A stretch of 64,000 nucleotides of DNA from Xanthocytophaga agilis (GTDB lineage Bacteria; Bacteroidota; Bacteroidia; Cytophagales; 172606-1): assembly GCF_030068605.1 (NCBI RefSeq), contig NZ_JASJOU010000002.1, positions 186,001 through 250,000 of the forward strand. The letters are read 5' to 3'. How positions within the stretch are numbered: the first letter of the stretch is position 1; every line of letters begins with the position of its first letter. The notes beneath the pieces are model-generated. The model had not been told where the DNA came from, did no database searches, and saw only the letters and a list, made by a program, of their open reading frames with translations. Below, piece after piece: positions 32,457 through 38,002 of the stretch. Position numbers and translations under genes: made by a program.

Positions 32457-32861
32457 ATGGAAAAGATATCTTATTACAAGGCCCCCCACGTAGAAGTGGT
32501 GTACAATCCAACACATCAAACTGTTGAGTATAAATGGATTGGTTTCGTTAACGATGCAAAAGCCAAAGAAGGTATGCAAAAAATAACAGAAGCGATCATT
32601 AAATACAAAGCGCCTTTTATGATAGCTGATCTGATCGAGTTTAAAGGTGGCTTGCCTGAAACAGCTCAGTATGTCAACGACATTTGGAGTGAAGATCTTA
32701 AGAAAGCAGGTTTACAGAAAATCGCATTAAATTTGCCTGAAAGCATTTTCGGAGAAATCACGAATAAGAAAGCCTTGGGAGAAAAGTTTGTTTCTCTGCA
32801 TACTGTAGAAAAATTCGCAGCATCTTTTGAGCAAGCTTATCAATGGTTTAAAAGCAAATAA
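32457..32861 (+). CDS. STAS/SpoIIAA-like protein A
   Basis: The 134-residue product has the alternating strand and helix pattern of the SpoIIAA/STAS-like (lipid-binding Sec14-related in some annotations) fold: VEVVYNPTHQTVEYKWIGFV, then helix KEGMQKITEAIIKYKAPFMI and terminal helix FEQAYQWFK. A second protein with the same pattern lies 3.3 kb away (36167-36568). Both have no membrane span and no catalytic motif. In Bacteroidota, genes of this family often stand alone, and their function is unknown. Confidence 0.7.
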   Translation: MEKISYYKAPHVEVVYNPTHQTVEYKWIGFVNDAKAKEGMQKITEAIIKYKAPFMIADLIEFKGGLPETAQYVNDIWSEDLKKAGLQKIALNLPESIFGEITNKKALGEKFVSLHTVEKFAASFEQAYQWFKSK

Positions 32862-32905: not shown

Positions 32906-33577
32906 TTAATTATTGAAATATTTGATAATCAACTGGCATTTCTCACAATCCTGAATGTCGGCAAATACAGGTGTATCCTCAAATAAAAAATCTTTGTATT
33001 CAACAATATCAAGTGGTTGGTAACCAAAGCGATTTACATACACATGCTGAGAGATTGGTCCTGTTGCTTCTCCAATTGCACCTTTAAAGTTTTTTGACTG
33101 TGCAAGTTTTTCCGCTTCCAGAGTAAGTTCATCAATAATCCCTTTTCCAGCAAATTCTTTTCGTACCCCTCCCATAAATAAATGGTATAATTCTCCCTGC
33201 TCTACAACATTCTGGCTTTTAAATTTATTGGTCAGCTCTTCCAGTAATCCAAAGATTGGGAAGAACTTTTCTGAGATTGTCTCAATCCCTTCAGGAAGTT
33301 CAGTGATAAAATCTTCACAAACCAAACATCCAATAACTTCTCCAGATACACTGTCCTTTGCAACAACAGACAATCCATCTGTTACAGCTTTATTTACAAA
33401 CAACTTTGCAAAATGATCAAATTCCTTTTTGGAAATACCAAGTAACTTAGTCATAGGTTCTCCATAAGTAAAAGTAGAAGCAATGCAGTCTACAGCACCT
33501 TCCACATCATCTTTAGTAAGTACACTGAAAGTAATTGTTCCTTGTGCAGGTGCAGATGAATAAACAGCGTTTAGCAT
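32906..33577 (-). CDS. GNAT acetyltransferase resembling arylalkylamine N-acetyltransferases
   Basis: The 223-residue product has GNAT strands: SVVAKDSVSGEVIGCLVCED, then GVRKEFAGKGIIDEL as the acetyl-CoA loop (motif A, Q/RxxGxG/A type), and a final motif VNRFGYQPLDIVEYKDF. The opening FTYGEPMTKLLGISKKEFDH resembles the EPL.../EP-type start of insect AANATs (dopamine N-acetyltransferases), which is unusual in bacterial GNATs. The gene lies 47 bp downstream of an aromatic-amino-acid-type decarboxylase in the same orientation, so it likely acetylates the amine that enzyme makes. Substrate inferred from context. Confidence 0.75.
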   Translation of the reverse strand: MLNAVYSSAPAQGTITFSVLTKDDVEGAVDCIASTFTYGEPMTKLLGISKKEFDHFAKLFVNKAVTDGLSVVAKDSVSGEVIGCLVCEDFITELPEGIETISEKFFPIFGLLEELTNKFKSQNVVEQGELYHLFMGGVRKEFAGKGIIDELTLEAEKLAQSKNFKGAIGEATGPISQHVYVNRFGYQPLDIVEYKDFLFEDTPVFADIQDCEKCQLIIKYFNN

Positions 33578-33624: not shown

Positions 33625-35160
33625 TTAACTATTTTGCTTTTGCATATATTTATACTCGATATTTACCATAGCAGCAGTAGTATCTTCTGCCACTACTTGT
33701 TTTACCATTAGTGTGTTATACACTTCCTTCGCTATCATCTGAATACGGGTAACTGTTTCGAGTATATCATCTTCAGATGTACGAGGATTAATGGTACACA
33801 TACGCATCACCAGCTTTCCGTTAAGTCTTGTAGTTGGGGTTAATGCAAACTTATCATCTGCAACAGCCAGAGCTATAGCATCATTTAGTTCTTCAATCAT
33901 CTTCTCATCAAGAGAAGCTGGCGCATACCGAAAAGTCACAATACCAAGCCTGGCATCACTCATAACCTGCCATCCCTCCCTCTCTTCCCACAAATCCTGT
34001 ACATACTTTGCTAGTTTGATACCACGATCAATAGCAGAGCTAAAGTTCTCCAGACCAAATATTTTGATAGACATCCATAGTTTGAGTGCTCTGTCACATC
34101 GGGTAAGCTGAAGACCTTTTCCATAAAAATTAACATCATTCATGGATTCTTCAAGATTACGCATATAATCAGCAGTCATATCGAAAGTTTCTGCCAGCCA
34201 TCTATCTTCTTTCACTAACAAGCACCCCACTTCATAAGGTTGGAAAAACCATTTGTGAGGATCTACAGTGAGCGAGTGAGCATACTGTATACCATTCAGC
34301 ATTTCTTTTGCTTCTTTACTCAAAGCAGCAGCAGCTCCGTAGGCACCATCAACATGCAACCACATATCTTCCTGCTCACAGATAGCATAAATTTCCATTA
34401 ATGAATCAATTGCTCCGGTATTGGTTGTGCCAGCATTTGCAATTATACAGAATGGACGTAGTCCGGCAGCTTTATCTGTTTCTATCTGTTGTCTCAGATA
34501 TTCTACATCCATACAATAATCTGCGCCAACCGGAATCTTTCGAATCTGGTCAGTTGCAAATCCCAGGATATAGGCAGCACGTTCATTAGACCAGTGCGCC
34601 TGGTCTGAGAAATATAACACAGCATTCTCAATCTTATCTTTCAGCTTAATCTTTCTGGCAACAGTAAGTCCACTGAGATTTGCAATAGATCCCCCTCCCA
34701 CCATAATACCGCCTGCTTTTTTGGGAAAACCAATTATCTCCTTAAGCCAATCAATGACAATGATTTCTATTTGAGTGGGTCCGGAAGAGAGCATCCATGC
34801 CCCAGTAGTAATATTGAATCCTGTGGCCAGCAAATCAGCCATAACACTTACAAAATTGCTGGGACCTGGTACCCATCCAAAAAGACGTGGATGGTTCATA
34901 TGCATAATATGGCTAAAAATATCCCATATCGCTTGTTCGAATACATCTTCCCACTTTGCTCCTTTTTGAGGTGCGGGCTCCCGCAATAAGGCCTCCATTT
35001 GCTGACGGCCTACCATATTTACAACAGGCTTGTCCTTAAGAACTACAGAGTGCTCGATAATGGTATCAATAACCTTATAACCAAATCTGCGCATCTCTTC
35101 CTGAGATAGCTGTAATTGTGCATAGTCAGATAATTGCAAACTGTTTTTAGAATCAAACAT
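33625..35160 (-). CDS. Group II PLP-dependent amino-acid decarboxylase (aromatic type)
   Basis: The 511-residue product is a pyridoxal-phosphate decarboxylase of the AADC/TyrDC/TDC family: HPRLFGWVPGPSNFVSVMAD near the start, GGGSIANLSGLTVARK for PLP phosphate binding, DMWLHVDGAYGAAAALS with the ring-nitrogen Asp, and Lys303 in VDPHKWFF as the PLP Schiff base. Such enzymes make tryptamine, tyramine, phenethylamine or DOPA amines. The exact amine cannot be told, since the selecting residues of this family are not identifiable by eye. It has its own 1-kb upstream region and is followed by the GNAT gene. Confidence 0.9.
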   Translation of the reverse strand: MFDSKNSLQLSDYAQLQLSQEEMRRFGYKVIDTIIEHSVVLKDKPVVNMVGRQQMEALLREPAPQKGAKWEDVFEQAIWDIFSHIMHMNHPRLFGWVPGPSNFVSVMADLLATGFNITTGAWMLSSGPTQIEIIVIDWLKEIIGFPKKAGGIMVGGGSIANLSGLTVARKIKLKDKIENAVLYFSDQAHWSNERAAYILGFATDQIRKIPVGADYCMDVEYLRQQIETDKAAGLRPFCIIANAGTTNTGAIDSLMEIYAICEQEDMWLHVDGAYGAAAALSKEAKEMLNGIQYAHSLTVDPHKWFFQPYEVGCLLVKEDRWLAETFDMTADYMRNLEESMNDVNFYGKGLQLTRCDRALKLWMSIKIFGLENFSSAIDRGIKLAKYVQDLWEEREGWQVMSDARLGIVTFRYAPASLDEKMIEELNDAIALAVADDKFALTPTTRLNGKLVMRMCTINPRTSEDDILETVTRIQMIAKEVYNTLMVKQVVAEDTTAAMVNIEYKYMQKQNS

Positions 35161-36568: not shown

Positions 36569-36748
36569 ATTTACTTATGAAGTTTTAGTAATAAATAGTT
36601 ACAGGCTAAAATACAAAAATGAAAAAGTGACATCCCTTCTTCAAAGAAATCTTGCAAATTTCCTTACAATGAAAGTCTTTTCACGTTTTAACTATTTTTA
36701 TTTCTCTAAGGTTTTATCTATATAGAAAATATGTCCTTCCCAGAAACA

Positions 36749-36786
36749 AAAATTGCGCAATAATTAACTAATTATTGCGCAATTTT
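36749..36786 (-). terminator. Terminator of the GRAS-like gene
   Basis: A perfect 18-bp inverted repeat (36749-36766 and 36769-36786) with only two bases between the arms, located 16 bp beyond the stop of the minus-strand gene at 36803. Confidence 0.8.
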
Positions 36787-36802
36787 CGGGCGAATTACTT
36801 AT

Positions 36803-38002
36803 TTATTTATTAAAAAATTCAGAATTAGATATAGAAACCAGGTACTTATTTGCCTTCTTTTCAAATAAATCTGTTAAAACCACTTCCAGAGGCTCTGCCA
36901 TAATTACAGAAATAACATCCTGGTCCTTATACCTAATACTCCAAAAATCATAATAACTGTCATGTATTTCTATACTGCCATGTATTTCTATACTGCAATA
37001 GTTATCAAAATACAGATTTAAATCTTTTTTAGTAGCAATAAAACCAACCTCCTGCAATAAGGCTAACCATTGGCCAACAGCATAATGTTTTTCAACCCGA
37101 TCACTTTCATGAACACCCAGTATATCATCAACTTCTCTGCTAAAAAATAGTTTTAGAGCATTCTTTTCTTCATCTGCCAATGGTAATTCATCAATGGCCT
37201 CAAATATTAAACTAAATAAATGAAGACAATTTTTAAATCGCTGATAGTAGTTGGGTTCATAGTGATCGACATTGGGCTCTGACAACACAATAGCTCTTAC
37301 AGATATATCCCTTAAATTCTGAAACACCTTAATTCTATCTCGATTAGATTTAATATGATGCAATGCAAATGATGCATTCACAACAATATTATCACCTAAT
37401 CCGGATAGTACTGCAGACCAATCCTGCAAAGACATGTTCTCAGAAAAATCATTTTTCAGAATATAGTTAACTTCAAAAGGAACATCTTTGGCTATCTCTT
37501 CAAAGTTTTGTTTTGCGGCTTCCAATGCTTCAGCAAATGGTTCTATAGCAACAATAGTTATTTTCTGTAGCTGACGTAGAGGTTCGTTTCCCAATCGACG
37601 TACTATTTCCCTGGCTTGATATCCTGTTCCTGCACCAATATCAACTAACACAGCCTCTTTCCAACCTCTAAGCCGCTCACAGATAAGAGTGTTAGCTAAC
37701 TGCTGGGTCATACTAATCATTGGAAACTTTTTAATCAAAAGCTCAAACAATTGAATCTGAGGTATTTCAAATTTCTTAGTATAGATATGTTCATATTTGT
37801 CTGTACTATCTTTGGTGAATTGTTTCATGGCTCGTGCGAATACAAAATCCAACATAGTATTCTCTGCATCAATATTTTTCCAGCTTTCCTGCTCGATCTG
37901 ATGGATAGGCTCCATAATCTCTTCATATACATAGTGAGGAAAACAACGCGCTAACCGGGTTAGCTTCTCTGTATTTGCTGTCAGAAATTTGTTCGTAAAC
38001 AT
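36803..38002 (-). CDS. Bacterial GRAS-domain protein (Rossmann methyltransferase fold)
   Basis: The 399-residue product shows the order of plant GRAS motifs: leucine-rich region and KKFPMISMTQQLANTLICER (about 91-110), VHIID-type strand VLVDIGAGTGYQAREI (118-133), then ITIVAIEP (148-154), VVNASFALHHI (207-217), PFYRE-like PNYYQRFKNCLHLFSLIFEA (250-269), GVHESDRVEKHYAVGQWLAL with QEVGF (297-321, the G..R.ER.E...QW...AGF signature) and a SAW-like end. Bacterial GRAS proteins were predicted to be small-molecule methyltransferases with an SAM-binding GxGxG, which GAGTG here supports. It likely methylates a small molecule. Target unknown. Confidence 0.8.
   Translation of the reverse strand: MFTNKFLTANTEKLTRLARCFPHYVYEEIMEPIHQIEQESWKNIDAENTMLDFVFARAMKQFTKDSTDKYEHIYTKKFEIPQIQLFELLIKKFPMISMTQQLANTLICERLRGWKEAVLVDIGAGTGYQAREIVRRLGNEPLRQLQKITIVAIEPFAEALEAAKQNFEEIAKDVPFEVNYILKNDFSENMSLQDWSAVLSGLGDNIVVNASFALHHIKSNRDRIKVFQNLRDISVRAIVLSEPNVDHYEPNYYQRFKNCLHLFSLIFEAIDELPLADEEKNALKLFFSREVDDILGVHESDRVEKHYAVGQWLALLQEVGFIATKKDLNLYFDNYCSIEIHGSIEIHDSYYDFWSIRYKDQDVISVIMAEPLEVVLTDLFEKKANKYLVSISNSEFFNK
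36961..36996 (-). repeat. Tandem 18-bp duplication within the GRAS-like gene
   Basis: CATGTATTTCTATACTGC is repeated twice without gap (36961-36978, 36979-36996), giving a six-residue duplication SIEIHG/SIEIHD near residues 337-348. It keeps the frame and lies in a loop before the SAW-like region. Confidence 0.8.

Follow-up and report, generated by a model that had tools for sequence, protein, structure and literature searches.

A GRAS-domain protein of Xanthocytophaga agilis, a predicted methyltransferase, and the aminotransferase neighbour of its Bacteroidota relatives

Plant GRAS proteins run the gibberellin response and root patterning, and they are held to act without methyl transfer. 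Bacterial GRAS proteins were reportedly predicted by Zhang, Iyer and Aravind in 2012 to be small-molecule methylases built on a Rossmann methyltransferase core. Elsewhere, alpha-keto acid C-methyltransferases of the SgvM/MppJ type work with aminotransferases, and MarI/MarG and MppJ/MppQ are separate methyltransferase/aminotransferase pairs for beta-methyl amino acids. Transfer of a methylase gene from bacteria is the origin proposed for plant GRAS proteins in two published accounts (PMC6232258; PMC9942845).

The gene analysed here lies in a stretch of 64,000 nucleotides of Xanthocytophaga agilis (contig NZ_JASJOU010000002.1, positions 186,001 to 250,000; hereafter the window), whose features are collected in Table 1. 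The encoded protein is itself a further example of the already known bacterial GRAS methylases, and the added element is the recurrent link between Bacteroidota GRAS genes and an aminotransferase gene. No report of a GRAS/aminotransferase cassette or of a STAS neighbour was found among the papers listed by literature searches, though the 2012 paper may mention them. With an aminotransferase as recurrent partner, the candidate substrates would be confined to keto or amino acids, and a test with two genes in a laboratory strain would become feasible. Such a partner would also hint at the type of ligand that the plant pocket originally accommodated.

Table 1 Features of the window discussed in the text (positions are those of the window; residues are those of the GRAS protein)
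Feature	Position	Strand	Remarks
GRAS-domain protein, 399 aa	36803..38002	(-)	Predicted class I SAM-dependent methyltransferase; Pfam GRAS, fold, AlphaFold model
SAM-binding motif I, DIGAGTG, residues 121-127	37622..37642	(-)	G123, G125 and G127 in 67/67
End of strand 2, VAIEP, residues 151-155	37538..37552	(-)	Residue 154: E in 61/67, D in 6/67
LHH, residues 214-216, after strand 4	37355..37363	(-)	H215 in 66/67, H216 in 67/67
FFSRE, residues 286-290, PFYRE-like motif	37133..37147	(-)	F286, F287, R289 and E290 in 67/67, partly through selection, as the same stretch served as scan pattern
RVEKH, residues 302-306	37085..37099	(-)	R302 and E304 in 67/67; aligns with plant DRVERHE
Stem-loop, 18 bp, with T-rich tail	36748..36787	(-)	Terminator-like; just past the GRAS stop
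STAS-fold (RsbS/SpoIIAA-like) protein, 133 aa	36167..36568	(-)	Family C4, recurrent GRAS neighbour; fold match
PLP decarboxylase	33625-35160		Pyridoxal_deC match
GNAT	32906-33577		Weak match

Family membership, fold and SAM site

The Pfam GRAS model (PF03514) matches the window ORF with an E-value of 1.1e-30 and 107.2 bits, well over its cut-off of 27, the alignment covering residues 12-325 of the protein and positions 3-328 of the 374 in the profile. General methyltransferase models reach 27.5 bits at most, all under their cut-offs; this score belongs to the runner-up, Methyltransf_12, which has a cut-off of 30. No NCBIfam model passes its cut-off (top score 24.5 bits, 219 needed). A PF03514 search found this to be the single GRAS gene of its genome, and gave no match in 14 control genomes. 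When a profile of 67 bacterial GRAS proteins was searched against the PDB, all 15 distinct sequences with E <= 0.001 were plant GRAS proteins. The AlphaFold model (pLDDT 90.1, pTM 0.89) has the GRAS fold with its helical cap: plant GRAS structures hold ranks 1-12 in Foldseek, and eight plant GRAS entries align in VIA-align with Z scores of 34.5-37.6 over 340-357 residues, that is across the whole domain, while CysG, BelI, SgvM, EgtD and other methyltransferases follow from Z 18.8 downward. Among these followers, keto-acid and amino-acid methyltransferases tie with many other class I enzymes at Z of about 17-19, so that fold similarity singles out no substrate.

The assignment to the GRAS family made in the first-pass annotation is thus borne out by the Pfam score, the PDB profile matches and the fold, and no better match to an ordinary class I methyltransferase family was seen, GRAS being best by both sequence and fold. 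The annotation had also credited the protein with all plant GRAS landmarks. This holds for the motifs it quoted, all of which are present in the translation (VDIGAGTG at 120-127, VVNASFALHH at 207-216, PNYYQRF...FSLIFE at 250-268 and GVHESDRVEKH...QW...QEVGF at 296-321), the VHIID-like strand reading VLVDIG with GxGxG intact. It holds less well for the SAW end, since the HMM alignment stops at profile position 328 of 374 and leaves the last 46 positions unaligned, whereas the structure alignment reaches model residue 373. The part of the domain that would carry leucine heptad repeats I and II is covered by the profile alignment. The gene also contains an 18-bp in-frame tandem repeat (SIEIHG/SIEIHD, window positions 36959-36994), which is missing in X. 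flavus.

Residue conservation was examined in an alignment of 67 sequences, comprising the window protein and those of 66 of 80 loci (14 were left out). GxGxG and, where strand 2 ends, an acidic residue are both found in 67 of 67, which supports well, as far as sequence goes, the earlier prediction of a SAM-dependent small-molecule methyltransferase. The acidic group at residue 154 is expected to hold the SAM ribose; its equivalent in two aligned plant DELLA proteins is a glycine. Because the glycines and the acid are kept in the bacterial proteins and lost in these two, bacterial GRAS proteins should bind SAM, and the two DELLA proteins may have no SAM binding, which fits what was reportedly predicted in 2012. 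E242 and R255 are likewise invariant in 67 of 67, together with H216, R302 and E304, and H247 is kept in 65. The LHH motif is a possible catalytic, metal or substrate contact.

Relatives were collected by scanning genome contigs with the FF.RE stretch as pattern and keeping the best 80 of 93 matches. Among these best 80, the closest named relative is Xanthocytophaga flavus YF14B1 (95% identity) and Bacteroidota predominate, the others coming from cyanobacteria, Paenibacillus, Cohnella, Ectobacillus, Nannocystis and other Myxococcota, relatives of Vampirovibrio, and from MAGs, one of Methanoperedens and a few of proteobacteria. GRAS genes are rare: counting the window's own genome each time, they were found in 7 of 59 relatives' genomes, 4 of 395 in a phylum sample and 8 of 395 in a class sample (7 above the cut-off). 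The same-genus genome G002 (72% complete) gave no GRAS match, and a search of viral contigs gave no relative. In the Methanoperedens MAG (L071, 3088-8945), GRAS is preceded by genes for a flavin oxidoreductase, a histidine kinase-like protein and an ABC-2 transporter, with gaps of 3-8 bp; if the MAG is not misbinned, this is a rare archaeal GRAS. In a GRAS tree built by a quick method, with 12 loci left out and two plant rows, the window protein is sister (support 99) to a set of 11 rows, 7 of which have the aminotransferase described below and 4 of which are from Runella.

Neighbouring genes across GRAS loci

The gene neighbourhood was compared over 84 GRAS loci (the window, the 80 scan loci, L010, L014 and L016), of which L093 and L094 were dropped because their gene models contained no GRAS, leaving 82. 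In 35 of the 82, a gene for a HisC-like PLP aminotransferase, family C1, lies downstream of GRAS and shares its strand, at position +1 in 34 of them and at +3 in one; near-copies (window/L018, Nannocystis) are kept in these counts, and the aminotransferase of L016 is outside the 35. The gap to GRAS is below 100 bp in 31 of the 35, and 7 overlap, although overlaps depend on the starts chosen, the gene models being a simple choice of ORFs. All 35 loci are from Bacteroidota, where another 23 of the 58 have no C1, and neither C1 nor the STAS-fold family C4 is found in the 24 loci from other phyla. Six GRAS loci originating from the class sample were also tested. They provide no independent check, as the DNA of four was included before; the remaining two are a locus that has GRAS without C1 in the flank available and a fragment.

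The two C1 proteins scanned with Pfam are class I/II PLP aminotransferases (126 and 140 bits). A role in histidine biosynthesis was considered and is unlikely. Three C1 genes score 240.0, 218.7 and 240.0 bits against TIGR01141 (hisC), below its cut-off of 276.55. A hisC match over the cut-off is present in 9 of 14 genomes with C1 and absent from 5, and the 7 of those 9 genes that were placed in a tree all fall within the HisC group. Furthermore, hisD, looked for in 7 of the 14 genomes, is present in 5 and missing in G264 and G523, the only two of the seven that also have no hisC above the cut-off. In the aminotransferase tree, which included four duplicate rows, the Bacteroidota C1 sequences group together with a support of 89 (below the starred level), apart from the canonical Bacteroidota HisC sequences, which group with 100; the C1 group is split in two, as in the GRAS tree. 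Distances between GRAS proteins correlate with those between their C1 neighbours (rho 0.864 for 26 loci, of 28 aminotransferases, 0 of 2000 permutations reaching this value; 0.685 within 19), which could be expected from vertical inheritance alone too. No C1-clade gene was found among nine matches in the window's own genome: the top four comprise HisC itself, a tandem pair of HisC-like paralogues and one more paralogue of that type, and the rest score 69 bits or less.

Other arrangements were also observed. In five Runella loci (L019, 5463-10064; L020; L024; L028; L081), the aminotransferase after GRAS is replaced by a phosphotriesterase-family hydrolase, encoded 9-15 bp downstream of GRAS in the four Runella of the window's sister set, and a 3-hydroxyacyl-CoA dehydrogenase/enoyl-CoA hydratase fusion lies upstream of GRAS, directly so in four of the five. 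A conserved operon outside the Bacteroidota was looked for and rejected: the neighbours scanned there vary by locus (ABC-2 transporter, 2-hydroxyacid dehydrogenase, aldolase, Mur ligase and some proteins without a family), with the exception of the partner-switching genes of Nannocystis. In the latter (L084, 2637-7161), the genes are closely spaced and GRAS comes first. Next are a 177-aa protein with no assigned family, whose gene overlaps by 4 bp, a SpoIIE phosphatase (102.9 bits), HATPase/slr1658-like and STAS_2/slr1659-like proteins (both below the cut-off) and a nucleotide cyclase (133.6 bits).

The second recurrent neighbour, C4, is a protein of about 130 aa that adjoins GRAS in 20 of the 82 loci, the window included, and on the same strand in 17. 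All C4 loci are from Bacteroidota, and five of them also have C1. The model of the window's C4 protein (pLDDT 90.6) matches RsbS with Z 13.6 (rmsd 2.4, 115 residues aligned) and SpoIIAA with Z 12.7, while a Pfam scan of C4 proteins gave no family above the cut-off and no STAS hit for the window's protein. Of the nine C4-type matches in the window's genome, the GRAS-adjacent gene scores highest, with 166 bits, and the remainder reach 51-120 bits; both this gene and the second match, at window position 32457, were in the search profile. The second match is a diverged STAS-like gene (32457-32861) on the opposite strand, about 20% identical to the first; its distance is 3.3 kb to that gene and 3.9 kb to GRAS.

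Proposed role and alternative readings

We give a probability of about 0.5 to the reading that the window protein is an active GRAS-fold class I SAM methyltransferase, that its clade works with an aminotransferase on a keto or amino acid, and that the STAS-fold protein is a regulator. The substrate is read as a keto or amino acid because the clade is so often linked with an aminotransferase. GRAS and the C1 aminotransferase would share a compound, either an alpha-keto acid or its amino acid, with GRAS methylating the compound and the aminotransferase moving the amino group, much like the MarI/MarG and MppJ/MppQ pairs, and the adjacent STAS-fold protein would answer to the same compound or pathway. 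The window's genome yielded no gene of the C1 clade, so that there either a general transaminase would take this part or the product would be a different one.

Some of the same observations would also suit a ligand-binding regulator. With SAM or a small molecule as its ligand, GRAS would then control the neighbouring STAS protein or two-component genes and transfer no methyl group, as is held for plant GRAS proteins. The STAS-fold neighbour in 20 of 82 loci and the Nannocystis set headed by GRAS are in agreement with this, as is the frequency of two-component genes, which is 44 of 451 within three genes of GRAS and 31 of 544 farther away (odds ratio 1.8, p = 0.02, uncorrected for relatedness, such genes coming in pairs). 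This overall enrichment is weak, and it is not seen at the positions adjoining GRAS, where such genes number 11 of 159, no commoner than in that background. The SAM motif and LHH are, however, complete in nearly every row, and the aminotransferase link is commoner than the STAS link (35 against 20 of 82), so a regulator of this kind seems unlikely. It is decidedly improbable that GRAS is a protein methyltransferase modifying the STAS-fold neighbour or a kinase: while STAS adjacency occurs in three separate parts of the GRAS tree (the window, Rhodocytophaga/Cyclobacteriaceae and Marinilabiliaceae), 30 of the 35 C1-bearing loci have no STAS neighbour, and small-molecule enzymes account for many of the best fold matches outside GRAS.

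The first-pass annotation had further suggested that the methylated compound might be made nearby. GRAS would then methylate the product of the PLP decarboxylase and the GNAT encoded in the window, the steps following one another in a melatonin-like way. Genes for all three enzyme types are indeed grouped inside 5.1 kb of a single strand in both Xanthocytophaga loci, and the Pyridoxal_deC match reaches 251 bits, but that of the GNAT is weak (14.5 bits, under the cut-off of 20.7). Moreover, the hairpin, the STAS-like gene and a gap of 1006 bp come between GRAS and these two genes. The hairpin (-23.3 kcal/mol, z -5.17; none of 200 shuffles reached so low an energy) is not among the elements listed by a consensus terminator scan; because it is strong and follows the GRAS stop, the GRAS and STAS genes are probably separate transcripts in the window. 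Only two of the 82 loci, both from Xanthocytophaga, have the decarboxylase and GNAT families no more than four genes away from GRAS, and in Rhodocytophaga G006 the GNAT relative and GRAS are on different contigs. With the hairpin, the gap, the pairing confined to one genus and the contig split all against it, the idea of a compound made nearby is not supported, and a local pathway of this kind has very little chance of being correct.

A separate observation concerns genome G189 (L008, 1483-2607 and 422-1486; also L016), whose GRAS reaches 237.7 bits with PF03514, roughly double the other scores in the phylum sample, and which alone has a PF03514 match among the 114 genomes of its order. This GRAS groups with plant DELLA proteins against 71 other rows (support 98, in a quick tree with two plant rows only), and is a candidate for the nearest bacterial relative of plant GRAS. 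Directly upstream, with a 4-bp overlap, is a HisC-like gene; the locus has 70% GC. The HisC-like gene passes TIGR01141 at 290.7 bits, a second hisC being present elsewhere in the genome, and it does not group with C1, although it sits on a long branch and its placement is unsure. This pairing is possibly independent of the one with C1. A wider idea, which we regard as doubtful, is that the GRAS fold began in a methyltransferase/PLP aminotransferase cassette whose product was a methylated amino-acid-type signal sensed by STAS or two-component neighbours, and that the plant pocket is made for the like. As G189, nearest to the plants in this quick tree, sits in such a pair, an inherited plant ligand pocket would suit such a compound.

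Comparison with described methyltransferases and plant GRAS proteins

The window protein resembles the bacterial GRAS methylases reportedly predicted in 2012 in its GRAS sequence, its Rossmann core and its SAM motif. Outside the family, the O-methyltransferases CysG and BelI are the top fold match (Z 18.8), and no sequence match to them was found at E <= 1. Their metal motif is His-His-Asp (PMC11408123), and it may be set against the LHH of the window protein. SgvM shares the class I core (Z 18.2), but the match is limited to the methyltransferase domain, about 200 of 336 residues, and its Z score is tied with those of other enzymes. A paper on SgvM describes a metal bound by H244 and H296, with the ketoacid alpha-ketoleucine directly on the metal (PMC10502145). 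H215, H216 and H247, conserved in the window family, may be set against H244 and H296 of SgvM, and the comparison with SgvM, CysG and BelI is a lead only.

Plant GRAS proteins (RGA, DELLA protein 1, SCL3, SCL7, SCR and SHR) are alike over the whole domain in fold, although the identity to the window protein in structure alignments is only 14-18%. Unlike the plant DELLA/SCL regulators, the window protein has no long N-terminal region, its GRAS match starting at residue 12 of 399, and the two aligned DELLA chains differ from it in having neither GxGxG nor the acidic residue. Both sides share counterparts of the RVEKH..W and FF.RE stretches of the window protein.
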